Below, one piece after another: positions 2,020 to 13,430 of a stretch of DNA of 64,000 bases. The DNA lies in assembly GCF_014195325.1 (NCBI RefSeq), contig NZ_JACIBK010000001.1:806001-870000 (forward strand), given 5' to 3'. How positions within the stretch are numbered: the stretch's first letter is position 1; the number at the start of each line of letters is the position of its first letter. The notes below the pieces were generated by a model. It was not told the DNA's origin and searched no databases. It saw only the letters and a list, made by a program, of their open reading frames with translations. Made by a program: the position numbers and the translations under genes. This stretch comes from Rhizobium sp. BK650 (GTDB lineage Bacteria > Pseudomonadota > Alphaproteobacteria > Rhizobiales > Rhizobiaceae).

Positions 2020-2220
2020 TCAGATAAAGGCCGCAGCATCGATGCTCCAGCTATCCCGCATCTTTGCGCTGACAAAAGCCCTGTCGCCTGCCGGGCGGGC
2101 GTTTTCACGGGCGGCTGCATCCAGAAGGGCCGCAAAAGATGCCAGGCTGATCTTGTCGGCGCGAAGCATCTGGCGGATCAGCGGATCTCTCAGCATTTCC
2201 GATGAGGTCATCTCTGGCAT
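2020..2220 (-). CDS. Small conserved-looking hypothetical protein
   Basis: A 66-residue protein beginning MPEMTSSEMLRDPLIRQML. It is rich in Leu and charged residues, predicted to be mostly helical, with no signal peptide or membrane segment. Its first half (residues 8-40: DPLIRQMLRADK, then ASFAALLDAAA) reads like a short amphipathic helical module. Codon use matches neighbouring real genes, and a good terminator lies just downstream, which supports expression. An upstream AGGATAACC at 2221-2229 (minus sense) gives a plausible ribosome site. No function can be assigned. Confidence 0.65.
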   Translation of the reverse strand: MPEMTSSEMLRDPLIRQMLRADKISLASFAALLDAAARENARPAGDRAFVSAKMRDSWSIDAAAFI

Positions 2221-2447
2221 GGTTATCCTCCAATGACTGGTTCTTCCGACGCTTGCCGCATCTTACATCCGTATTGCTATGAATGCATGTCGCGGCGGTG
2301 GCGAAAAGACGGCAAACGAAGTTCATTTGGGCTAGCTCCAATGTGGCATTGGTCTGCCGGTTGATCGGATGCTACCGTAAGCGACCGAGGGTGTACCGCA
2401 GCGAAAGACAAGCACGGCCAAGGCGGGCATAGCGAAGGAGGGGGCAC

Positions 2448-2651
2448 ATGGAAGCAAAGATGTTCGATGAGATCGTGGTAGGGCTGGCTGCACTCAAGGC
2501 CAGGAATGCCGCGATTAGTGATCGGCCCCAAGCTCCCAAAGATCAGAAATATGCGCGGATTGAAGTGAAGGTCAGGTCTGCCAAAGCGCGCAAGCGCGCG
2601 CAGCAAATGGAGAGCGACGAGACCGAATGCGTGATATCAACGCAATGTTGA
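2448..2651 (+). CDS. Small basic hypothetical protein
   Basis: A 67-residue protein (MEAKMFDEIVVGLAALKARN at the start) preceded by a very strong ribosome site, GAAGGAGG, 8 bases before the ATG. Its middle is strongly basic (KYARIEVKVRSAKARKRA), which could contact nucleic acid or acidic partners. The C-terminus ends in C-V-I-S-T-Q-C. No known family is recognised, and there is no membrane segment. It stands alone between a minus-strand gene and another short plus-strand gene about 110 bases downstream. Confidence 0.5.
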   Translation: MEAKMFDEIVVGLAALKARNAAISDRPQAPKDQKYARIEVKVRSAKARKRAQQMESDETECVISTQC

Positions 2652-2760
2652 CCATGAACGTATTTTTCTGACATTCGCTCACATTTTTCCGATTGCATAT
2701 GCATGCGAAAGCCGCTCTTCTTGTCGTCCATATCCCTAATTTAGAGATCTCCTGACCGCC

Positions 2761-2991
2761 ATGAACCGTTACGACATCGAGCGCCGGAACGAAGACGACT
2801 GGATTGTGATCGACCGGCTGACGGGTGCACCCGCGCCGCATCTGCCGGAAAAGCTCGGAAGCAGGCTTGAGGCCCAGGCCCTTGCCGATTTTCGTAACCG
2901 GCTGGCTGTCCCGCAACAGGAGCGCATCCGCTCCCGCCTCGACACGCTAAGGCTCGCCTGGCAGGCGCTGACGGGTAAGCGAACGCGTTAA
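2761..2991 (+). CDS. Small hypothetical protein
   Basis: A 76-residue, highly charged, soluble protein starting MNRYDIERRNEDDWIVIDRL. The first 20 residues read as a beta-strand pair (DWIVIDRLTG), and the remainder as a long helix (LEAQALADFRNRL to LDTLRLAWQAL). A ribosome site is not strong (GATCTCCTGACC precedes the ATG). No family is recognised; composition and codon use look genuine. It converges with the nrsF-like gene, and a terminator serving the opposite strand lies between them at 3011-3033. Confidence 0.6.
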   Translation: MNRYDIERRNEDDWIVIDRLTGAPAPHLPEKLGSRLEAQALADFRNRLAVPQQERIRSRLDTLRLAWQALTGKRTR

Positions 2992-3010
2992 AGCTATTCC
3001 ACCGAGGCAC

Positions 3011-3033
3011 AAAAAGGCCCGCCGAAGCGGGCC
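3011..3033 (-). terminator. Rho-independent terminator of the sigF-nrsF unit
   Basis: GGCCCGC (3016-3022) and GCGGGCC (3027-3033) form a 7-bp stem closed by a CGAA tetraloop (TTCG on the minus strand), followed on that strand by TTTTTG. It lies about 150 bases downstream of the anti-sigma gene stop. A second weak hairpin (GTTATT/AATAAC, 3043-3058) lies just before it. Confidence 0.8.
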
Positions 3034-3178
3034 GAACTGTGGGTTATTGGGAAATAACAGGCTGGATCGCACGACGCGTTGTGTGATGCATGGTTCCGTT
3101 AAAGGAAGTGCGCCGTACGGTCCGCATTCCAGACCGAAATAGCCGCCAAAAGTTCCCGCGGTTGATGATATTTTTCCA

Positions 3179-3814
3179 TCACCAGCGAAGGATTTTTCGG
3201 CCGAGCAGGAAGCCTGCTGCCGTCGCGACCGATATGCCGATCGAATACCAGGTCGCCACAAACAGCGGACTGTCGTCGGGGCAATGCCAGGCATAGATGG
3301 CGGCCGCGATGCCGCCGGCGGCAAGGCCCGCCACGGCACCGGCCATGCCCGGATTTTCCGGCGCGCCCTGGCGGACGGAATAGAGGATGGCGGCAAGCGG
3401 GGCGATCGAGAGCGTCGGGACGAAGAACAGGCAGAAGGCGGAGAAACGGCCCTCCATGCTGCTTGCCCAGGCCGCCTGCGGCACCACAAGGAACTCGGTC
3501 GCGATACCGATGACAAGAACGGCGAGTGGCAGGATGAGTGCCAGCGCCGCAGAGCGCAGCGAGATGCCGGGTTTGCCGATCCGGAAGGCGAGTCGGGTGG
3601 CGGTGGCGGCAAGCAGCAGGGTGAAGCCGAGTTTGAAGAGGACGCGCGGCGTCTCGATCATCTCGGCCATGTTCTTGCGGATGCCGATGGTCGATAGCAG
3701 CAGGGCGGCGGAGACCACCACGCCGATGGCGAGCGCAATCATGAAGACGCGGCCGAAGCGGATGCGGACGCGCGCGTCCTTTGCCAGCAGGTTGATCAGG
3801 TCATCCGTTTTCAC
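3179..3814 (-). CDS. nrsF: NrsF-type (DUF1109) membrane anti-sigma factor
   Basis: This 211-residue protein begins with a short charged cytoplasmic segment (MKTDDLINLLAKDARVRIRF) and then has six predicted membrane helices, the DUF1109/NrsF arrangement. Family knowledge: NrsF holds an ECF sigma factor inactive at the inner membrane and releases it under stress sensed through conserved cysteines. Two cysteines are present, Cys128 and Cys178, 50 residues apart, a spacing that as I recall matches the Caulobacter protein. Its start overlaps the end of the sigma gene by 14 bases, so the two are translationally coupled, as is usual for sigma/anti-sigma pairs. The inducing signal is inferred, not seen. 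Confidence 0.88.
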   Translation of the reverse strand: MKTDDLINLLAKDARVRIRFGRVFMIALAIGVVVSAALLLSTIGIRKNMAEMIETPRVLFKLGFTLLLAATATRLAFRIGKPGISLRSAALALILPLAVLVIGIATEFLVVPQAAWASSMEGRFSAFCLFFVPTLSIAPLAAILYSVRQGAPENPGMAGAVAGLAAGGIAAAIYAWHCPDDSPLFVATWYSIGISVATAAGFLLGRKILRW

Positions 3815-4367
3815 GCGTATTGCTCCGATATAGGGCGGCCAATCCCTTGAGCGCCCGGTGCAGCGCCACCCGCACAGCGCCTTCCGTCATCTGTAGCCTC
3901 TCGGCCGTTTCGCGGATGCCGGCACCGCCGAGCGAGATGGATCGCACAATTTCACGCTGCGGATCGCGCAGACCTTCCAGCATGCGGTCGACATCGATGC
4001 GATCGCCCCCGTCTTCCTGGTGGTCGGCTTCCAGCGTTTCCATCACATCCTCGATCGGCACCGAGACATGGCGGCCGCGGCGGCGCAGGCTGTCGATCAG
4101 CTTGTTGCGCACAATGGTCGAGAGCCACGGGCCGATCGGCCGGGAAATGTCCCATGTGCCGCGCTTCAGGTGCACTGCCAGAAGAACTTCCTGCACCACG
4201 TCTTCCACCTCGCTCGGCGGGGCACCGAACTGGTCGCAGCGCCGACGCGCAATCGACCGGAGATAGGGTGTCACGGCCTTGAGGAAACGGTCATAGGCCT
4301 TGATGTCGCCGGCGATTGCCGAGCGCATCCAGGCCGCCCATTCCTCTTCACGGGCCGAATATTTCAT
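3801..4367 (-). CDS. sigF: ECF sigma factor, SigF-like
   Basis: A 188-residue extracytoplasmic-function sigma factor. Region 2 spans roughly residues 20-95 (core helix with DVVQEVLLAVHLKRGTWD, then PWLSTIVRNKLIDSLRRRG) and region 4 roughly 120-180 (DPQREIVRSISLGGAGIRET, then the recognition helix MTEGAVRVALHRALKGL). It precedes and overlaps the NrsF-type anti-sigma gene, the organisation of the Caulobacter SigF-NrsF pair. A GTAAC-N17-CGTA promoter upstream (4382-4407) suggests autoregulation, and the same promoter type precedes the nearby bufferin-like operon. Target assignment rests on this shared motif. Confidence 0.9.
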   Translation of the reverse strand: MKYSAREEEWAAWMRSAIAGDIKAYDRFLKAVTPYLRSIARRRCDQFGAPPSEVEDVVQEVLLAVHLKRGTWDISRPIGPWLSTIVRNKLIDSLRRRGRHVSVPIEDVMETLEADHQEDGGDRIDVDRMLEGLRDPQREIVRSISLGGAGIRETAERLQMTEGAVRVALHRALKGLAALYRSNTRENG

Positions 4368-4381
4368 CCGCCACTATCCTC

Positions 4382-4407
4382 TACGCACCGGACCACGTGT
4401 TTGTTAC
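4382..4407 (-). promoter_or_regulatory. Candidate SigF-type promoter of sigF-nrsF
   Basis: On the minus strand GTAAC (4407-4403) is followed after exactly 17 bases by CGTA (4385-4382), with the sigF start 15 bases beyond the -10 element. The layout matches the -35 GTAAC / -10 CGAA signature known for Caulobacter SigF, and the spacing equals that of the promoter found before bufA. A promoter this close to the ATG leaves only a very short leader. Confidence 0.6.
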
Positions 4408-4507
4408 CGTCATCCTGAAAAATTTGATGACGTGGCACGTGAGGGAAAGCCGGCGTCCGCGCCTATTGAGCGCATTGACCGGCAAACGGCAAGAGCAGTG
4501 CGGGAAC

Positions 4508-4548
4508 AAAAACGCAAAAGCCGCCCAGCGCGATGAGGAGCCGGGCGG
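4508..4548 (-). terminator. Terminator of the bufferin-like operon
   Basis: GGGCGG (4543-4548) pairs with CCGCCC (4521-4526), and on the minus strand the stem is followed by CTTTTGCGTTTTTG. It lies 32 bases past the doxX-type stop and about 100 bases before the sigF promoter, so it separates the RiPP operon from the sigma/anti-sigma unit. Confidence 0.65.
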
Positions 4549-4579
4549 TGAGCTTGCGCCGGTATCGTATTCGGTCGGT

Positions 4580-5107
4580 CTAGCTCTTGGCAGCGCCTGA
4601 TATCCGCGCAATCAGATGGTCGAGAGACAGGCGACCCGGCCCGTAGCGCATGATGGCGAGCGCCATTGCCGCCCAGGTGATGTGGATGGGCCAGCCATCG
4701 GGAACTGTCAGCTCGACGATCAGGGTCATGAAAAGCAGGCCGAGGCCGGCAAAGCGGGTGGCGAGGCCAAGGACGAGCAGCGTCGGGAAGATGATCTCGC
4801 CGCAGCCGGAGAGAAAGGCCATGACCGCAGGCATGGGGAAGGGATAGGGGCCGCCCGGCAGGTGCAGCATGAATTCCTCGGTGAAGAGATCGATCGCCGT
4901 ATCGTTCAGCTGCAGGAAGCCATCCCATTTCAGGATGCCGGAGCGCCAGAAGGGCACGGCGAGCGCCACACGCAGCACGGCCTGAACAAGATCGGGGTGG
5001 GCGACGGCGCGGACAAGTCCGTCAGCCGTCGCCACCAGCCTCGCCAGCGGGGAGAGAGCGCCGTTGCGAGGCTCGTTGTGAGGCCGGGATTCAAGCATAT
5101 CAGACAT
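4580..5107 (-). CDS. DoxX family membrane protein of the bufferin-like operon
   Basis: A 175-residue integral membrane protein with about four transmembrane helices and the DoxX core (VPFWRSGILKWDGF, then a long helix with LVLGLATRFAGLGLLFMTLI, and the closing HITWAAMALAIMRYGPG). DoxX proteins are small quinone or redox-linked membrane subunits; their role beside MNIO RiPP genes is not firmly known. It is the last gene of the minus-strand operon, and its start overlaps the end of the DUF2063 gene by 8 bases, so it is cotranslated with the modification genes. Start chosen at [11 protein letters not shown], preceded by GGAGATTTCCA. Confidence 0.85.
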   Translation of the reverse strand: MSDMLESRPHNEPRNGALSPLARLVATADGLVRAVAHPDLVQAVLRVALAVPFWRSGILKWDGFLQLNDTAIDLFTEEFMLHLPGGPYPFPMPAVMAFLSGCGEIIFPTLLVLGLATRFAGLGLLFMTLIVELTVPDGWPIHITWAAMALAIMRYGPGRLSLDHLIARISGAAKS

Positions 5108-5903
5108 TGGAAATCTCCGGTTCGATAGCGGAAAAGGCGCCTGATGCGATCATCTCGCCAATGGCAGCGGAGAGATCGAAGGCGGGATAGGTGTTGAGGC
5201 CGGCTGCCACGGCGGCGGCAAGGCATTCGCCCGATAGCAGCGCGTTGAAGAAAGCCGCACCACCTGGAGGCAGAAGACGCACGGTGACCTCGTCGTCGAC
5301 GCGGGTGATCAGCCCGTCTTCGGGGTGATCGTCGACGCGACCGACCGGCCCCGAGCCCCGATTGATGGCGAAGATGGTGACGGCTGGATGATCAGATGAG
5401 ATCACGCGCGTTGCCGGATGCGGGCGAAAAGCCGCCGCCCCGAGATCTTCCTGTGGCACGGCTGCCAGCGCTTCGCCGCGGAGGGCTGGCGCATCGGCGG
5501 CGTGATAGGCGTCCAGCCAGGCCCGCTCGATCCTCGCCACATCCGAAAGCCAGGGCATGTCCTGGGCGTATTCGTAGCGATCGATGAAATCGGGAAAGTC
5601 ACGTCCGTATTCGAACAGCAGCGGCGAGGCTGGCGGCGTCTCGCGCACATGGAAGCGTGCCATGGCGCGGAAGAAATCGGTGCCCGTAATACGCTCGACC
5701 GCCGGGAAGATCGAGGAGAGGGCGGCAATCAGGCTGACGGTGACATTGTTGCGGTAGACATTGTAGCGCTTCTCCGCCCGCTTGCCACGCGGGCCTGTGA
5801 TCAGGTCCGGGGTGGGGGCGTCGGGGACCAGCAGGGCTGCGGAGAATTGCCTGGCGAAATTTGATGCCATTGGTCGGATCGGCAGGATATCAGCCGAGCG
5901 CAT
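5100..5903 (-). CDS. bufC: DUF2063 partner protein of the MNIO enzyme, BufC-like
   Basis: Start chosen at the ATG at 5903 because GGGAGA lies 7 bases upstream; an ATG at 5927 would add 8 residues. The product is 267 residues. The N-terminal part ([13 protein letters not shown], then [20 protein letters not shown] and FPAVERITG) is the DUF2063 'putative DNA-binding' domain that in MNIO clusters serves as the partner which presents the precursor to the enzyme (as in MbnC and TglI-type systems). The C-terminal half is a less conserved alpha/beta domain. The gene overlaps the MNIO gene by 14 bases and the DoxX gene by 8, so all three are coupled. DNA binding is only the old domain name and is not implied here. 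Confidence 0.85.
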
Positions 5904-6816
5904 GGGAAGTCTCCCTGTCACTGACATGTCGATCGAGAATGGCTTGCGCCGCCAGCGCCTCGGCGCGCAGCACCGGCCAGTCGGGGATATTGCTGTCCCA
6001 TTCGATCAGGGTGGGGATTGGGCCGCAGCTGTTTATGACGATCTCGTAGAGCTGCCAGACGGCGTCGGCGACCGGGCCGTCATGGCTGTCGATCAGAAGC
6101 AGCTCGCCTTCGTCGTCCTCCTGTTCGGCATGGCCGGCGAGGTGGATCTCGCCGACTTTCGCCAGCGGAAAGTCGCTCAGATATTCCAGCGCCGAAAACC
6201 CGTGATTGCTTGCGGAAACGAAGACATTGTTGATGTCGAGCAGCAGGCCGCAGCCCGTGCGTTTCGATATCTCGCGGATGAAATCCGTCTCACTGATGGA
6301 GGATTCCGCAAAGAGCACATAAGTGGAGGGATTTTCGAGCAGGATCGGCCGGCCGATGGCATTCTGCATCTCATCGATATGATCGCAGACGTGCGCGAGT
6401 GTCGCCGGTGTATAGGGCAATGGCAGCAGGTCGTTCAGATAGGTATCGACATGCGTCGACCAGGCGAGATGCTCAGACACCAGCGCCGGCTCGTAGCGGT
6501 CGATGAGGCTCTTGAAGCGCTTGAGATGGTCTTTGTCGAGCGGCTGCGGGCCGCCGAGCGACATGCAGACACCGTGCAGCGAAATCGGGTGGTCGCGGCG
6601 CACCCTTTCAAGCGCGCGATGCGGCGGGCCGCCGGCACCCATATAATTTTCGGCGTGGATTTCAAAGAAGCCTTGCGAACCGGACAGGGCCGAGATTGCC
6701 GCAAGATGCTCCGGCTTGAAGCTGGTGCCGGCCTGACCGGCGACCGGGTATGTCGGAAAGCGGAGGGAGCTTTCCGTCTCCGAGGGAAGGTTGGCCTTCA
6801 AGGTGACGTTTGCCAT
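5890..6816 (-). CDS. bufB: MNIO family (DUF692) multinuclear iron-dependent oxidase, BufB-like
   Basis: A 308-residue TIM-barrel enzyme of the DUF692/MNIO family. Visible metal-site blocks are [10 protein letters not shown] (51-60), [10 protein letters not shown] (80-89), SEHLAWS (114-120), LLENPSTY (159-166), [10 protein letters not shown] (191-200), [10 protein letters not shown] (222-231), IDSHDG (242-247) and [11 protein letters not shown] (270-280), which carry the His, Glu, Asp and Asn residues that hold the iron atoms in this family. Family knowledge: MNIOs oxidatively rebuild cysteines of ribosomal peptides; in bufferins they form 5-thiooxazoles that bind copper. Directly upstream lies a DUF2282 precursor, downstream a DUF2063 partner, so this enzyme very probably acts on that precursor in the cytoplasm before export. 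Confidence 0.93.
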
Positions 6817-6855
6817 ATGCGCCTCCGCTTTCCTGATCTGCGTCTGGTTTTCGGC

Positions 6856-7170
6856 TTAGATGTCGCGCGTCAGCGGCTTCAGCGAGCCGTGACGGCCGCC
6901 CGGCAGATCAAGCGAGGCGCAGGTGCCGCCCTGGACGAATTTCCACGAATTGCCCTGGAAGTCCTTGACCGAGGTTCCCTGGCAGGTCGTGCCCGGGCCG
7001 GCAGCGCAATCGTTCTGGCCCTTAAGCGCAACGCCGAAGCACTTCTCCTTGTGGGCGGCGGTTGCGGCAGCGGCCTCAGCCTTGGTCAGCGGGGCGGCAC
7101 TGGCCATCGTGGCAAGAGCTGACGTGATTGCGCCGGCAAGAAGGGCGGTGCTGATGGAAGTCTTCAACAT
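6856..7170 (-). CDS. bufA: Bufferin-type RiPP precursor (DUF2282), BufA-like
   Basis: A 104-residue precursor. Start chosen at ATG 7170, with GGAGA 9 bases upstream; a longer frame to 7656 has no signal sequence at its head. Residues 1-26 form a Sec signal peptide ([19 protein letters not shown]). The mature part has four cysteines, 44, 55, 63 and 84, in the DUF2282 pattern K-C-F-G, N-D-C-A, T-C-Q-G and G-G-T-C. This fits the bufferin family, in which MNIO-modified cysteines buffer copper in the periplasm. It is the first gene of the operon, 39 bases ahead of bufB, and has its own SigF-type promoter. The 20-residue tail after Cys84 carries one His and several Arg/Lys but no further Cys. Confidence 0.9.
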
Positions 7171-7498
7171 GGTAGTCTCCGTTGCTTGAAACGCCCCTGT
7201 TTCAGCGGGGCACGTCGGGGTATTCGCAACGGGAGAGCGGGTTGTTACACGCGTGGCGGTAACGAAGGCGTGATGTTGGTTTGGGAGCGTGGAGTGCGGT
7301 TCGCCATGAAACGTGAATTTGAGATTGTTGCTGATGTGAATGGGCGTGCATGGCCACTTCTTTGGCGACGAAGACTGCTCGGAGATTGTATCGCGCCGGC
7401 CGGATGAGGTCTGACAATGGCTTTGCGGGCATTTCAAGCGCATAATGTTCAGTGCCTGAAATGTGCCTGCTGACATCCCCGTGGAAAGGATGCATGTC
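7171..7498. other. Divergent intergenic region between bufA and the hydrolase gene
   Basis: About 330 bases lie between the two divergent starts. On the minus side they hold the bufA promoter (7223-7248). On the plus side there is only a ribosome site (GGAAAGG, 7483-7489) for the hydrolase. A plus-strand GTAAC at 7259-7263 has no matching -10 element. No coding frame here is convincing. Confidence 0.55.
7223..7248 (-). promoter_or_regulatory. Candidate SigF-type promoter of the bufferin-like operon
   Basis: On the minus strand GTAAC (7248-7244) is followed after exactly 17 bases by CGAA (7226-7223), a full match to the GTAAC / CGAA signature reported for the Caulobacter SigF regulon. A start of transcription near 7215 would leave a leader of about 45 bases before bufA. 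The same elements with the same spacing precede sigF itself. Confidence 0.7.
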
Positions 7499-8803
7499 AT
7501 GACCTTCCGGCAATCGGTCCAGAGGCTGCAGATCTCACGGCGCTCGCTCCTGTCGAGCGGTGCGGCAATCGGGTTGGCGGCAGCACTTCCGTCGGCAGCT
7601 GCGGCGGACGATGCCATGGTGCCTGGCGGTGAAATCCAGCCGTTCCGGGCGGACATTCCGGAGGCGTCCCTTGTTGATCTGCGCCGCCGGCTCGCCGCAA
7701 CACGATGGCCTGATGGAGAGACCGTGGCCGACCGATCGCAAGGTGTGCCGCCGGACAGGCTGAAGGCGCTAGTGGCGGACTGGCAATCTTCCTACGACTG
7801 GCGCAAGGCGGAGGAGCGGCTGAATGCCTTTCCGCAATTCGTGACTGAAGTCGACGGGGTCGACATCCATTTCATTCATGTCCGCTCCCGGCACGAGAAT
7901 GCCCTGCCGTTGATCATGACGCATGGCTGGCCGGGGTCGGTGTTCGAGTTGCTCGGCGTCATCGGTCCGCTGACCGATCCCACGGCACATGGCGGCACGG
8001 CTGACGATGCCTTCCATCTGGTCATTCCATCGATCCCCGGCTTCGGCTTTTCCGGCAAGCCCATGGAATCGGGCTGGAACCCCCAGCGCATCGCCGCCGC
8101 CTGGGACAGGCTGATGAAGCGCCTTGGCTATGAGCGCTATGTTGCGCAGGGTGGGGACTGGGGGGCGATCATCAGCGATGCGCTGGGGCGTCAGGCGCCC
8201 GACGGCCTGCTTGCCATTCACGTCAACCGGGTGGAGCGCGCCACGACCTTTCCGCCGGATGCGGCTCAAGCGCTGATGAACGGTGCGCCCGCGCCTGACG
8301 GCTTGTCGCCGGAAGAGAAGATCATCTTCAGGGAGGCGCGGGATTTCCTCAATAACGGCTTCGGCTATGCCGCGATCATGGGAACGCGACCGGAAACGAT
8401 CGGCTACGGTCTAGCGGATTCTCCCGTCGGGCTGGCGGCCTGGCTCTATGACAAGATCGCCGACTGGGTTTTTACCCGCGGCGATCCGGAACAGGCGCTC
8501 GGCAAGCAGGCCATTCTCGATAACATTACGCTTTACTGGCTCACCAATACCGGGCCGTCGAGCGGGCGCATCTACTGGGAGAATGCCGCAGCGGGCGCAA
8601 AGCTGGAACCGGTGAAGGTTCCGGTCGCCGTCACGGTCTTTCCCGGCGAGGTATACCGGCCGCCGCGGCACTGGCTCGGCAGGGCCTATCCGCAGCTGAT
8701 CTACTACAACACGGCCGAAAGAGGCGGCCATTTTGCAGCCTGGGAGGAGCCGGAACTCTTCGCCCGGGAGGTTAGGGCCGCGTTCAGGACATTGCGTGCT
8801 TAA
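7499..8803 (+). CDS. Epoxide hydrolase-like alpha/beta hydrolase with Tat signal
   Basis: Start chosen at ATG 7499, which has GGAAAGG about 9 bases upstream; earlier ATGs would bury the signal. The N-terminus has a twin-arginine motif ([13 protein letters not shown]) and an Ala-rich stretch ending in PSAAAA, so the enzyme should be exported folded. The body carries the N-terminal epoxide-hydrolase domain ([20 protein letters not shown]), the oxyanion motif HGWPGS, the nucleophile motif GGDWGA with its catalytic Asp, and the late catalytic His in [10 protein letters not shown]. These place it in the EH subfamily that resembles juvenile hormone and microsomal epoxide hydrolases. The natural substrate cannot be read from the sequence. 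Confidence 0.88.
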
Positions 8804-9544: not shown

Positions 9545-9570
9545 GGCGCGCCGGTTTTCCGCGCGCCTTT
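9545..9570 (+). terminator. Rho-independent terminator after the stress gene
   Basis: GGCGCGC (9545-9551) pairs with GCGCGCC (9561-9567), followed by TTT. It sits 30 bases after the stop at 9514 and abuts the convergent ABC ATPase gene, whose stop codon it overlaps. Confidence 0.6.
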
Positions 9571-10321
9571 AATGCGCCATGCCGTCGACGATGACGTGGT
9601 CGTGGTCCCTTGAGCATTTCTCGATGCGGGCGTGGATCTTGTAGACCTCGCGCAGCATGTCGACGGTAACGACCTCGCGCGGCTTGCCGCAGGCGCGCAT
9701 GCGGCCGTTCTGGATGATCAATACCTTGTCGGCGAAACGGAGCGCCTGGTTCAGGTCGTGGATGGCGATCAGCACGATCATGCCGCGCTTGCGGGCCTGT
9801 CGCTGCATGAAATCCAAGACTTCCACCTGGCGATGAAGATCGAGCGCGCTGGTCGGCTCGTCCATCAGCATGATTTCGGGCTCGCGCACCAGCGCCTGGG
9901 CGATGGAGACGAGCTGGCGCTGGCCGCCGGACAGCGCGCCGAGATCGCGGAAGGCGATCGCCTCGATATTCAGCGCCTTCATGATGTCGTCGATCAGCCT
10001 CAGATCCTCATCGCCGACGCCCCAGGACTGGCCCTGCTTGCGGGCAAGCAGGATGGATTCATAGACCGTCAGCACGGCATTGGCCGAGGTATCCTGCGGC
10101 ATGTAACTGATGGCATTTTTGGTCTTTGAGCCCTCGACCAGCACCTTTCCCGGGCCTTTCAGGAGGCCGGTGATGCGCTTGAAGAGCGTCGACTTGCCGG
10201 CGGCATTCGGGCCGATGACGGCGACGAGTTCGCCGGCAGCCAGCTTCGGCGTCGATATGCCTTCGACGAAGAGCTTGCGGCCGTGATAGGCGCCGACCGA
10301 CTGCAATTGAAGCGCTACCAT
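9569..10321 (-). CDS. Iron/siderophore-type ABC transporter ATPase (FecE/BtuD class)
   Basis: A 250-residue ATPase with Walker A GPNAAGKST near residue 37-45, Q-loop MPQDTS, signature LSGGQRQ near 128, Walker B IMLMDEPTSALD and the switch His in AIHDLNQALRFAD, an order and length typical of FecE/FhuC/BtuD subunits. It would power uptake of a metal chelate or cobalamin together with the permease upstream. Its ATG overlaps the permease stop by 7 bases. The last gene of a three-gene operon headed by a binding protein and an iron-responsive operator. Confidence 0.92.
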   Translation of the reverse strand: MVALQLQSVGAYHGRKLFVEGISTPKLAAGELVAVIGPNAAGKSTLFKRITGLLKGPGKVLVEGSKTKNAISYMPQDTSANAVLTVYESILLARKQGQSWGVGDEDLRLIDDIMKALNIEAIAFRDLGALSGGQRQLVSIAQALVREPEIMLMDEPTSALDLHRQVEVLDFMQRQARKRGMIVLIAIHDLNQALRFADKVLIIQNGRMRACGKPREVVTVDMLREVYKIHARIEKCSRDHDHVIVDGMAH

Positions 10322-11385
10322 GAGCGGCTCCTGTTTGAGAGGATGAGGGAGAAGAAGAAGGGCACGCCGACGAGCGCCGTGATGATGCCGATCGGGAAGA
10401 CGACGCCCGGAATGATTGACTTAGAGATGACTGAGGTCAGCGACAGCAGCAGCGCGCCCGAGAGGATCGAGCCGGGCAGGAAGAAGCGCTGATCTTCGCC
10501 GAGGATCATGCGGGCGATATGCGGGCCGACAAGGCCGACGAAGCCGATCGTGCCGACGAAGCTGACGGGAACGGCTGACAGCAGCGAGATGATCAGCATC
10601 GTTTCCAGCCGGACGCGGCGCACATTGACGCCGAAGCTTGCCGCCTTGTCTTCGCCGAGACGGATCGCCGTCAGCGCCCAGGCGTGGCGGGCAAAGAGCG
10701 GCAAGGAAATCAGCAATACGGCAAGCGTGATCCAGATCTTCGGCCAGGTGGCCTTGGTCAGGCTGCCCATGGTCCAGAAGACGACGGCTGACAGCGCCTG
10801 TTCGGAGGCGAGATATTGCAGGAAGGCGAGAGCCGCGTTGAAGGTGAAGACGAGGGCGATGCCGAGCAGCACGACCGTCTGTACCGAAACGCCGCGCGCC
10901 TGTGAGATGAAGTGGATGAAGAGGGTTGCGACAAGTGCCATGACGAAGGCGTTGACCGGCACCAATAATCCCGCCGCAACCGGCAGGATCGGCACGCTTG
11001 TGACGATGGCAAGCGCCGCGCCGAAGCTTGCTGCCGCCGAAATGCCGAGCGTGAAGGGACTTGCGAGCGGATTGGCGAGGATCGTCTGCATCTGGGCGCC
11101 GGCGACCGAGAGCGAGGCGCCGACGACGATCGCCATGACGGCGACCGGCATGCGGATATCCCAGACGACGGCGCGGAGCTGCGCCGAGACGGAGCCCGGA
11201 TCGAGCAGGGCTGCCACGACCTCATCGAGGCCGTAGCGGGCCGGTCCCCAGGCGAGATCGACGGCGAAGGACAGGCAGAGCGCTGCCGTCATGGCAACGA
11301 GGATCAAAAGCTTGCGGCGGGCGAGGGCGCGGTAACGCGCCCTGCCTGCTTCGGCTTCGATCGGCATAGCGGCGATCTCTGCCAT
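10315..11385 (-). CDS. FecCD/BtuC-family iron-chelate ABC permease
   Basis: Start chosen at ATG 11385: the binding-protein stop lies 5 bases upstream and AAGTAAGG gives a ribosome site. The 356-residue product has about nine or ten membrane helices and the FecCD landmarks, a cytoplasmic RYGLDEVVAALLDPG loop, GASLSVAGAQMQTILANPLA, and the coupling segment near GTIGFVGLVGPHIARMILG. It works as a homodimer with the ATPase to import an iron complex across the inner membrane. Charged N-terminus, no signal peptide. Confidence 0.92.
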   Translation of the reverse strand: MAEIAAMPIEAEAGRARYRALARRKLLILVAMTAALCLSFAVDLAWGPARYGLDEVVAALLDPGSVSAQLRAVVWDIRMPVAVMAIVVGASLSVAGAQMQTILANPLASPFTLGISAAASFGAALAIVTSVPILPVAAGLLVPVNAFVMALVATLFIHFISQARGVSVQTVVLLGIALVFTFNAALAFLQYLASEQALSAVVFWTMGSLTKATWPKIWITLAVLLISLPLFARHAWALTAIRLGEDKAASFGVNVRRVRLETMLIISLLSAVPVSFVGTIGFVGLVGPHIARMILGEDQRFFLPGSILSGALLLSLTSVISKSIIPGVVFPIGIITALVGVPFFFSLILSNRSRSW

Positions 11386-11390
11386 TGGCC

Positions 11391-12527
11391 TTACTTTCCG
11401 GCCTTGGCGTCGACCCAGTAACCCGGCTGATAGGGAACCGGCAGGAACTTCTCGTGGAATTCCTTGAAGGTCGCATCCGGATCGAGATCGGCAAAGAGGT
11501 CCGGATGGAACCACTTGGCCATCTGCTGAACGGCGACGAACTGATAGGGGCTCGTATAGAACTGGTGCCAGATCGCGTGGACATTGCCGCCGCCAACAGC
11601 CTTGGAGCCGGTAAAGGCCGGGTTCTGCATCAACGCATCGAGCGCCTTGCGGCTGTCGTCGATGGTGGCGGCAGCGGTCGGGCCGACATTGACGTAGTCC
11701 TTGGCGTCCGTGGTCTGGCTCCAGTTCGAGCCGGTCACGACGACGACGTCAGGATTGGAGGCGATGACCTGTTCGGCATTGATCGAGCCGGTATAGCCGG
11801 GCAGGAAATCGGAGCCGAGATTGTGGCCACCGGCCCAATCGACCATCAGGCCGAAATTGTCGGGGCCGAAGGTGCCGCAGCATTCGACGAGGCCGGCGGC
11901 GCGATACATGAAGACGTTGGGCTTCTTCGGTTCGGCTTCCTTAAGCTTGTCGGTGACGCGCGCCATCTGCTCTTTCCAGTAAGCGGCGACGGCCTCGGCG
12001 CGGTCTTCATGGCCGAAGATCTTGCCGAGGATCTTCAGGCTCGGCTCGGTATTGGCAAGGATATGTTCGCGGAAATCGATATAGACGATCTTCACGCCGA
12101 TCTTGTCCAGCATGTCCTCGAGCTTCACCTCGTCGGCGGCCTTCTTGTTGCCGATCGGCAGCAGCATGACGTCGGGGTGAAGGGCGACGACGGTCTCCGT
12201 CTGCAGCGTGCCGTCCGTCAGGTTGCCGAGGAAAGGCAGGTCCTTGGCCTTTGGGAATTTCTCGACATAGGCATTGAAGCCATCCTTGTCTGTCGTCCAG
12301 AGGTCGTTGCGCCAGCCGACGATCTTGGCGAAAGGATCGTCCTTCTCGATAGGGGCAACGGCATAGAGCATGCGGCCTTCGCCGAGGATCACGCGTTCGA
12401 CCGGCTTGTCGAAGGTGACTTCGCGGCCGGCGACATCCTTGATGGTGAAAGGGTCGGCAAAGACCGAGAACGGCAGCAGTATCGCAACGGCGGCCGCGAC
12501 CAGTGCAAGCAATTTCATAAAATTCAT
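11391..12527 (-). CDS. Periplasmic binding protein for an iron chelate
   Basis: Start chosen at ATG 12527, with GGAGAG upstream; a second ATG lies 9 bases later. Residues 1-24 are a signal peptide (LALVAAAVAILLPFSVFA). The mature protein is a class III (FecB/TroA-like) binding protein: a first lobe with the VTFDKPVERVIL start, a long backbone helix, and a second lobe with ASNPDVVVVTGSNW. An unusual pair of adjacent cysteines (VECCGTFGP) lies near the ligand cleft. The operon has a TGA-N9-TCA box upstream, pointing to iron regulation. The exact ligand (siderophore, haem, cobalamin) is not decidable. Confidence 0.88.
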   Translation of the reverse strand: MNFMKLLALVAAAVAILLPFSVFADPFTIKDVAGREVTFDKPVERVILGEGRMLYAVAPIEKDDPFAKIVGWRNDLWTTDKDGFNAYVEKFPKAKDLPFLGNLTDGTLQTETVVALHPDVMLLPIGNKKAADEVKLEDMLDKIGVKIVYIDFREHILANTEPSLKILGKIFGHEDRAEAVAAYWKEQMARVTDKLKEAEPKKPNVFMYRAAGLVECCGTFGPDNFGLMVDWAGGHNLGSDFLPGYTGSINAEQVIASNPDVVVVTGSNWSQTTDAKDYVNVGPTAAATIDDSRKALDALMQNPAFTGSKAVGGGNVHAIWHQFYTSPYQFVAVQQMAKWFHPDLFADLDPDATFKEFHEKFLPVPYQPGYWVDAKAGK

Positions 12528-12574
12528 CTGGAAACTCTCTCCGTCCTCGGTTATTTCCCGAGGCATAGAAAAAC

Positions 12575-12589
12575 TGAGTTTTGGAATCA
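12575..12589. promoter_or_regulatory. IRO box (RirA-type iron-responsive operator)
   Basis: TGA (12575-12577), nine bases and TCA (12587-12589) match the TGA-N9-TCA core of the iron-responsive operator bound by RirA in Rhizobium. It lies about 48 bases upstream of the binding-protein start and about 50 upstream of the divergent methyltransferase start, so it could control both directions. Confidence 0.65.
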
Positions 12590-12641
12590 AGTTTTATGTT
12601 TTAGAGCTTTTCCAAAGTGAAGCCGGCGCCGGGTGAAGACG

Positions 12642-13430
12642 ATGAATACGATGAACACGAATTACTCCATTCGCGATGAAATCCGGGATTTCTGGTCGGA
12701 AAGGGCAGCGACGTTCGACGAGAGCGTCGGCCACGAAATCTTTTCCGAAGCCGAGCGAAAGGGCTGGCAGCGCCTGATCCGCAAGCATCTCGGCGAGGGA
12801 GAGGGGCGGGCGGCGCTCGACCTTGCCTGCGGCACGGCTGTCATTTCCCATCTCATGCATGGCGCGGGCTTCAAGGTGACGGGGCTCGACTGGTCGGATG
12901 CGATGCTGGCGCAGGCGCGGGCCAAGGCAAAGAAGCGCGGCACCGATATCCGCTTCGTCTCGGGTGACGCGGAAAACACCATGGAGCCGAAGGAGAGCTA
13001 TGACGTGATCACCAATCGGCACCTCGTCTGGACGCTGGTCGATCCGCCGTCGGCCTTCCGCGAATGGTTCTCCGTGCTGAAACCCGGCGGCAAGGTGCTG
13101 ATCGTCGACGGCAATATGGGCAAGGAGACCTGGGTCAAGGGTCTGCAGAAGCTCTGGACGAGGCTGACCGGCAAAGCGCCGGCAAGCCACATGAGGCCCG
13201 AGATGATGGCCCGCCATCAGGCCATCCGCTCGCGCGTCTATTTCTCGGACCAGATGCCGGCCGAAGCGATCGTCGAACTGCTGCGCCAGGCGGGCTTCGA
13301 CAATATCGTCGTCGACCGCAAGCTCTCGGATATTCATTGGGCGCAGGCGCGCAAGATGCCTTTCCTGCGCGGGCTGGAGCGGATGGTGCAGGATCGGTTT
13401 GCGATCTGTGCGACGAAGCCTCTGGCTTAG
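12642..13430 (+). CDS. SAM-dependent methyltransferase linked to the iron importer
   Basis: A class I methyltransferase of about 262 residues. Motif I is ALDLACGTAV, with VTGLDWSDAML as motif II, a post-I block IRFVSGDAENT and NRHLVWTLVDPPSA/FSVLKPGGKVLIVDG as the central strand region. Several starts are possible: GTG 12633, ATG 12642 and ATG 12651; GGTGAAG just before 12642 favours that one. It is divergent from the binding-protein gene and shares the IRO box. A methyltransferase beside an iron-chelate importer may modify or break down the imported ligand, but the substrate is an inference. Confidence 0.85.
   Translation: MNTMNTNYSIRDEIRDFWSERAATFDESVGHEIFSEAERKGWQRLIRKHLGEGEGRAALDLACGTAVISHLMHGAGFKVTGLDWSDAMLAQARAKAKKRGTDIRFVSGDAENTMEPKESYDVITNRHLVWTLVDPPSAFREWFSVLKPGGKVLIVDGNMGKETWVKGLQKLWTRLTGKAPASHMRPEMMARHQAIRSRVYFSDQMPAEAIVELLRQAGFDNIVVDRKLSDIHWAQARKMPFLRGLERMVQDRFAICATKPLA

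Follow-up and report, generated by a model that had tools for sequence, protein, structure and literature searches.

A probable bufferin-1-type operon and its neighboring sigma factor/NrsF gene pair, a locus of mosaic ancestry in Rhizobium sp. BK650

The DNA analyzed here, a stretch of 64,000 nucleotides of Rhizobium sp. BK650 (contig NZ_JACIBK010000001.1, positions 806,001 to 870,000 of the forward strand) referred to as the window, contains a complete bufferin-type operon in a locus of mosaic ancestry: the buf genes are of Sinorhizobium type and the adjoining sigma/anti-sigma genes of Rhizobium type. We put the probability at about 85% that an ECF16-type sigma/NrsF switch here controls an operon of the Buf1 (bufferin-1) kind, working as proposed below. 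The locus is real, complete and ordinary in kind; the additions to prior work are its mosaic assembly and a lead concerning ilvD. With it, a bufferin operon becomes accessible together with the switch belonging to it in a rhizobium that is tractable, so that a simple reporter test could show what induces ECF16/NrsF pairs in rhizobia.

Gene content and conserved residues of the operon

The four-gene operon runs from 7170 to 4580 on the minus strand of the window and is followed by the sigma and NrsF genes at 4367 to 3179, all six being intact open reading frames (Table 1). A four-gene minus-strand operon with one gap of 39 bases and overlapping genes otherwise had been the original prediction, and it was confirmed by the reading frames and by Pfam matches on all four products: bufA and bufB are 39 bases apart, and bufC and the DoxX gene overlap by 8 bases. 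The bufC frame (5927-5100) opens at 5927; we judge the ATG at 5903 to be the likelier start, which gives an overlap of 14 bases with bufB. The order bufA-bufB-bufC on a single strand recurs in 78 of 80 named loci and is not due to chance; the exceptions are L103, without a bufA match, and L104, at a contig end and without a bufC match. Profile searches of the whole genome matched DUF2282, MNIO and NrsF once each, and DUF2282 is present in 52 of 80 genomes of relatives.

Table 1. Features of the bufferin locus and candidate promoter sites (window coordinates unless a record is named)
Feature	Coordinates	Strand	Basis
bufA, Buf1/DUF2282 precursor, 104 aa	6856..7170	minus	Pfam DUF2282 74.6 bits (cut-off 22.4)
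Cys of BufA, in a segment of 23 residues (letters not shown)	within 6856..7170	minus	
bufB, MNIO (multinuclear non-heme iron oxidative enzyme), 308 aa	5890..6816	minus	Pfam MbnB_TglH_ChrH (PF05114) 345.7 bits (cut-off 25); NCBIfam MNIO_BufB
bufC, DUF2063 partner protein, 267 aa from ATG at 5903	5100..5903	minus	Pfam DUF2063 86.6 bits (cut-off 27.2)
DoxX-family membrane protein, 175 aa	4580..5107	minus	Pfam DoxX 55.7 bits (cut-off 23.6)
ECF sigma factor, 188 aa	3801..4367	minus	Pfam Sigma70 r2/r4; beside NrsF
NrsF-type anti-sigma, 211 aa	3179..3814	minus	Pfam NrsF 184.3 bits (cut-off 26.8)
SigF-type promoter GTAACA-N16-CGAA, 78 bases upstream of bufA start	7223..7248	minus	consensus match
SigF-type promoter GTAACA-N16-CGTA, 40 bases upstream of sigma gene	4382..4407	minus	consensus match
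ECF16-type candidate promoter upstream of ilvD	L140:2981-3006 = G000:C7:18480-18505		pattern GTAACR-N16-CGWA

A comparison of the precursor with other DUF2282 sequences had been suggested, and in it all four Cys columns of BufA hold Cys in each of 130 aligned copies, which come from 111 loci besides the window. By eye the N-terminus appears to be of Sec type, with a basic start, a hydrophobic stretch and the sequence TMASA|APLT (putative cleavage ASA|AP). Other assignments were rejected for BufA: the NCBIfam BufA2 model (Buf2) gave 22.9 against a cut-off of 60, and the protein has four Cys, not six; oxazolin-type membership was rejected on the NCBIfam scores of the cluster (HvfC and HvfX, below), and by eye the four-Cys protein has no EGKCG repeats; an unusual core, suggested by a stretch from Cys2 to Cys3 that seemed one residue longer than expected, was dismissed since such a length is frequent in the set of 130. 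In another group of loci (group R below; L003-L006, L013, L017, L095, L101, L110 and others) bufA occurs as tandem pairs, in which the first copy differs in its core and has fewer residues from Cys2 to Cys3 (GK-HDC); there the promoter site precedes the first copy.

BufB exceeds the cut-off of the NCBIfam equivalog MNIO_BufB ('MNIO family bufferin maturase') with 378.8 against 310 and matches the structure 3BWW by sequence (E 2.3e-38). In an alignment of 111 BufB rows the window protein departs from none of the near-invariant columns. The same is true of BufC, the sigma factor and NrsF in 80, 48 and 31 rows, respectively, in a test that covered these four proteins, with short or cut rows left out. 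Through 3BWW, BufB D243 and H245 align with D242 and H244 of HvfB, and N196 or N197, ambiguous by one position, with N175; all three HvfB residues are reported to be essential (PMC13419390). BufB D274 probably sits at the position of Asp249, the base proposed for FonB (PMC12668002).

For BufC a sequence search of the PDB gave no match at E 0.1. Its structure model (pLDDT 90.8) matches TglI of the TglHI holoenzyme (8hi7_A, E 5.6e-06) and NGO1945 (3dee, E 7.2e-05), both MNIO partner proteins, and the modeled fold supports a role of BufC as DUF2063 partner. With 34.8 against 142, BufC is below the NCBIfam cut-off for HvfC, and DoxX is below that of the HvfX family with 58.3 against 80. Scores below NCBIfam cut-offs, seen for precursor, partner, DoxX and NrsF, count against our best explanation.

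The sigma/NrsF pair and its promoter sites

In a phylogenetic tree the sigma factor groups with other sigma factors encoded beside NrsF. From its NrsF partner and the promoter sequences we infer that it is of the ECF16/SigF type. The sulfite response of Sinorhizobium meliloti RpoE1/RpoE4 was rejected as a model for it, RpoE1 and RpoE4 being ECF26. NrsF scored 102.8 against a cut-off of 300 for the NCBIfam equivalog AntiSigF_NrsF, and by this score would be a relative of that family and not a member of the narrow equivalog. In an alignment of 31 NrsF rows its residues C128 and C178 are among the positions with a conservation of at least 97%, and they match by position C131 and C181 of Caulobacter NrsF, which help to keep the sigma factor in check (PMC3511200).

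Sites of the SigF type lie before both bufA and the sigma gene (Table 1). The published SigF consensus is GTAACC-N16-CGAA (PMC3511200), and RpoE7 promoters are given as GTAACA...CGAA in a table that mixes 5'-RACE and RNA-Seq sites (PMC6180224). Conservation was followed for the bufA, sigma and ilvD sites, a strict site being defined as GTAACN-N16-CGNA within 350 bases upstream. In the loci other than that of the window, such a site precedes 67 of 129 bufA copies (0.69 expected) and 34 of 48 sigma genes (0.15 expected), the expectations being taken from single-base shuffles of the same stretches and the counts from related loci, hence not from independent events. The other 62 bufA copies have no strict site, which counts against the best explanation. 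Genome-wide, the bare pattern has 151 matches and its reversed control 582; for the narrower GTAACR-N16-CGWA the numbers are 21 and 47. As the reversed controls outnumber the matches, most of these sites in the genome are chance occurrences, and with the bare pattern so common the case for the promoters rests on their position and conservation. At the locus of S. meliloti 1021 (L114) we found the SMb20530 site identical, letter for letter, to the printed one, and a sigma site with a spacer one base shorter.

Where no sigma gene was matched in the stretch examined, the site before bufA is retained in 23 of 50 loci (among the named records from L034 up), so that control in these loci is probably exerted in trans. 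Fifteen named bufferin loci are without a sigma gene in the stretch examined, some of them being cut by contig ends, and 14 of these keep a SigF-type site before bufA. They comprise Mesorhizobium loci (L048-L050, L054, L058, L060, L067 and L081, the last being the only one without the site) and Bradyrhizobium loci (L044, L061, L062, L071-L073 and L075).

The bufferin-type operon that had been claimed for this DNA is supported by the family models and the order of the genes as well as by conserved residues and promoter sites. Nothing was found in favor of an inactive relic. That reading, which we regard as highly improbable, is opposed by the six intact frames, by the unbroken near-invariant columns of BufB, BufC, sigma and NrsF and by the retention of both promoter sites.

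Proposed function and competing readings

In the mechanism that we propose, thiol-reactive stress in the periplasm, most likely excess copper, would be sensed by NrsF in the membrane via its two Cys. Once freed from NrsF, the sigma factor would start transcription at the two GTAAC-N17-CGWA sites and raise the levels of itself, NrsF and the bufABC-doxX products. BufB with its partner BufC would oxidize the two central Cys of BufA to thiooxazoles in the cytoplasm, the signal peptide doubling as leader; after Sec export the outer two Cys would form a disulfide and the peptide would hold copper in the periplasm. DoxX may have an auxiliary role. Chemistry, metal, signal and the role of DoxX are read from relatives, and modification of Cys, export and metal binding are likewise what the family would predict.

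The family precedent for the peptide comes from Buf1 bufferins, in which Cys-derived thiooxazoles sequester periplasmic copper, the central Cys being modified and the outer Cys forming a disulfide (PMC12452194); thiooxazoles have been assigned in Caulobacter bufferin 1 (PMC12668002). The use of the signal peptide as leader is mentioned in one sentence and a cited title of PMC13419390. Buf1 bufferins in general share with the window the four Cys, the order bufABC, DoxX and the sigma/NrsF genes reported for their clusters (PMC12452194), and we found no difference that would set the window member apart biochemically.

Among the systems for which a phenotype is published, the closest is the SigF-NrsF regulon CC3252-CC3257 (bufferin 1) of Caulobacter crescentus, which has the same six gene families, a GTAACC-N16-CGAA promoter and an NrsF with two Cys (PMC3511200). 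It differs in that its regulon includes a second DUF2282/MNIO operon and MsrPQ (PMC3511200, PMC8224329), whereas the window genome has DUF2282, MNIO and NrsF once each. Copper induces both SigF and the regulon in all conditions tested there, and a sigF::Tn5 mutant is copper-sensitive (PMC8224329), which is the precedent for reading copper as the signal. Against this reading, the related gig cluster of C. metallidurans is quoted as having no effect on copper resistance (PMC8224329), and sigF and two of the MNIO genes were non-essential for resistance of Caulobacter to the metals tested in PMC3511200.

With the same operon and chemistry, the trigger and purpose might instead be oxidant, chlorine or sulfur stress, the NrsF Cys sensing reactive chlorine or thiol oxidants and the thiol-rich peptide acting mainly as a periplasmic scavenger. 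In favor of this, an MsrPQ-like operon is under the control of another ECF16/NrsF pair, the HOCl-responsive BcrS-AbcS of Brucella (PMC8315932), and in a relative without DUF2282 (G026) the sigma/NrsF genes lie near a molybdopterin oxidoreductase gene. In S. meliloti, RpoE7 and the homologous promoters were not induced by H2O2, cadmium or chromate, and the section concerned names neither copper nor hypochlorite (PMC6180224); this non-induction counts against our best explanation. Besides the copper phenotypes of Caulobacter, the oxidant reading has against it that agents generating reactive oxygen did not induce the SigF-dependent genes there (PMC3511200), and we consider it rather unlikely. 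That the peptide buffers another soft metal (gold, silver or mercury) more than copper appears quite improbable to us. In its favor, a GIG operon of Legionella reportedly responds to gold as well as copper (PMC5413113), the Cupriavidus gig cluster is upregulated with gold, silver and copper (PMC8224329), and fusions of MerC to bufferin domains are reported (PMC12452194), set against which the work on Buf1 in PMC12452194 and PMC12668002 centers on copper.

Mosaic ancestry and a candidate site upstream of ilvD

The idea that such an operon in a rhizobium, with a sigma pair of its own, may be uncharacterized did not stand: RpoE7-EcfR7 and SMb20527-SMb20530 of S. meliloti were published in 2018 with regulon and promoter sequences and no inducer found (PMC6180224). 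This system (SMb20530-SMb20527 on pSymB) also combines DUF2282-MNIO-DUF2063-DoxX with an ECF16 sigma factor, an NrsF-type anti-sigma and GTAAC...CGAA promoters (PMC6180224), and its BufB is 70.5% identical to that of the window. Its sigma pair, however, is divergent and upstream of the operon, whereas that of the window is downstream and co-directional, and its sigma factor and NrsF fall on different branches from those of the window.

Three layouts were distinguished. In layout W (the window and 10 loci) sigma-nrsF is downstream and co-directional. The pair is divergent and upstream in layout R (17 loci, mostly Rhizobium, 15 of them with two bufA) and in layout S (eight Sinorhizobium/Ensifer loci and one of Chelatococcus). 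In the sigma tree W joins R (support 98), and a grouping of W with S is rejected (p-AU 7.7e-55); the nrsF tree likewise rejects W+S (p-AU 1.1e-8), the support for W+R being just 77. The operon genes gave the opposite grouping. W joins S in the trees of BufB (support 100; W+R rejected, p-AU 3.9e-5) and BufC (support 99; W+R rejected, p-AU 2.3e-5), and for DoxX W+R is rejected as well (p-AU 3.0e-6) with a support for W+S of just 24. These clade tests were run on the same organisms, with 44 of 47 rows (L026, L045 and L106 omitted), and included 11 of the 17 R rows for nrsF and 4 of 17 for doxX. The naming of the groups followed inspection of the sigma and BufB trees; nrsF, bufC and doxX represent new data, with low support for two of their joins, W with R for nrsF and W with S for doxX.

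The -10 elements of the promoters follow the same division. In W, sites occur before bufA in 8 of 11 loci, all with CGAA, and before sigma in 8 of 10, all with CGTA; in R both genes have sites in 17 of 17 loci, all CGTA, and in S bufA has sites in 7 of 9, all CGAA. The R loci share the sigma and NrsF lineage of the window and differ from it in their two bufA copies (15 of 17), in a BufB on another branch and in a bufA promoter with CGTA, not CGAA. Trees and -10 elements thus agree that the locus is a mosaic. The simplest account of these sequences would be that an S-type bufferin operon came with its promoter under a resident R-type switch. The mosaic suggests that in this stress system output operon and sensing module can be swapped one without the other, with the promoter code preserved.

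The third candidate site is flanked by ilvD and by msrPQ-like genes, from which it is divergent, and points to ilvD, the ATG of which follows after about 160 bases. It is present in strict form in 75 of 120 genus genomes including that of the window (74 with CGTA, one with CGAA), against 0.30 expected from shuffles; the spacer is one base shorter in 2 genomes and the site is absent from 43. An unselected alignment, comprising 24 of the 30 best-matching loci with one row from the window's own genome, keeps the site in 23 of 24 rows and shows a diverged spacer with CCGTATA mostly retained. The partial counts 23/24 and 27/44 come from samples enriched in top matches or in the most diverged ones, and in a separate alignment of chosen ilvD sites the invariance of the -35 and -10 elements is partly due to selection. 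G102, the only one of the 120 genomes without an NrsF match, retains the site, which speaks against strict dependence on the SigF/NrsF switch. On contig 7 no SigF-type site faces the msrPQ-like pair, a check that covered this pair; two further Oxidored_molyb genes were identified. A literature search on ilvD in connection with an ECF sigma factor in Rhizobium gave one paper, on c-di-GMP.

IlvD is an Fe-S dehydratase, a class of enzymes damaged by soft metals and oxidants. As a third target of the switch ilvD is a lead and not a result. It is possible, though we hold this tentatively, that the switch of this Rhizobium branch couples periplasmic copper capture by the bufferin with renewed synthesis of IlvD via the ilvD promoter, the swapped-in operon having brought its own CGAA promoter and one sigma factor reading both CGAA and CGTA. 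If the ilvD site works, periplasmic copper capture would be tied to the replacement of a vulnerable cytoplasmic enzyme.

Around the operon, an epoxide hydrolase-like gene (window 7463-8803) is divergent from bufA; in L034, L035, L038 and L040, which are among the closest relatives, an EH-like match also lies upstream of bufA. Further on, window 9569-13430 carries a FecCD-type importer made up of ATPase, permease and binding protein, with a SAM methyltransferase gene in divergent orientation. In the Rhizobium without DUF2282 (L221, from G026), positions 2132-5477 hold, besides the ECF sigma/NrsF genes and the molybdopterin oxidoreductase, a gene judged by eye to be probably cytochrome b-like; the arrangement resembles the published HOCl-responsive one (PMC8315932), and there are five similar stretches (L222-L226).
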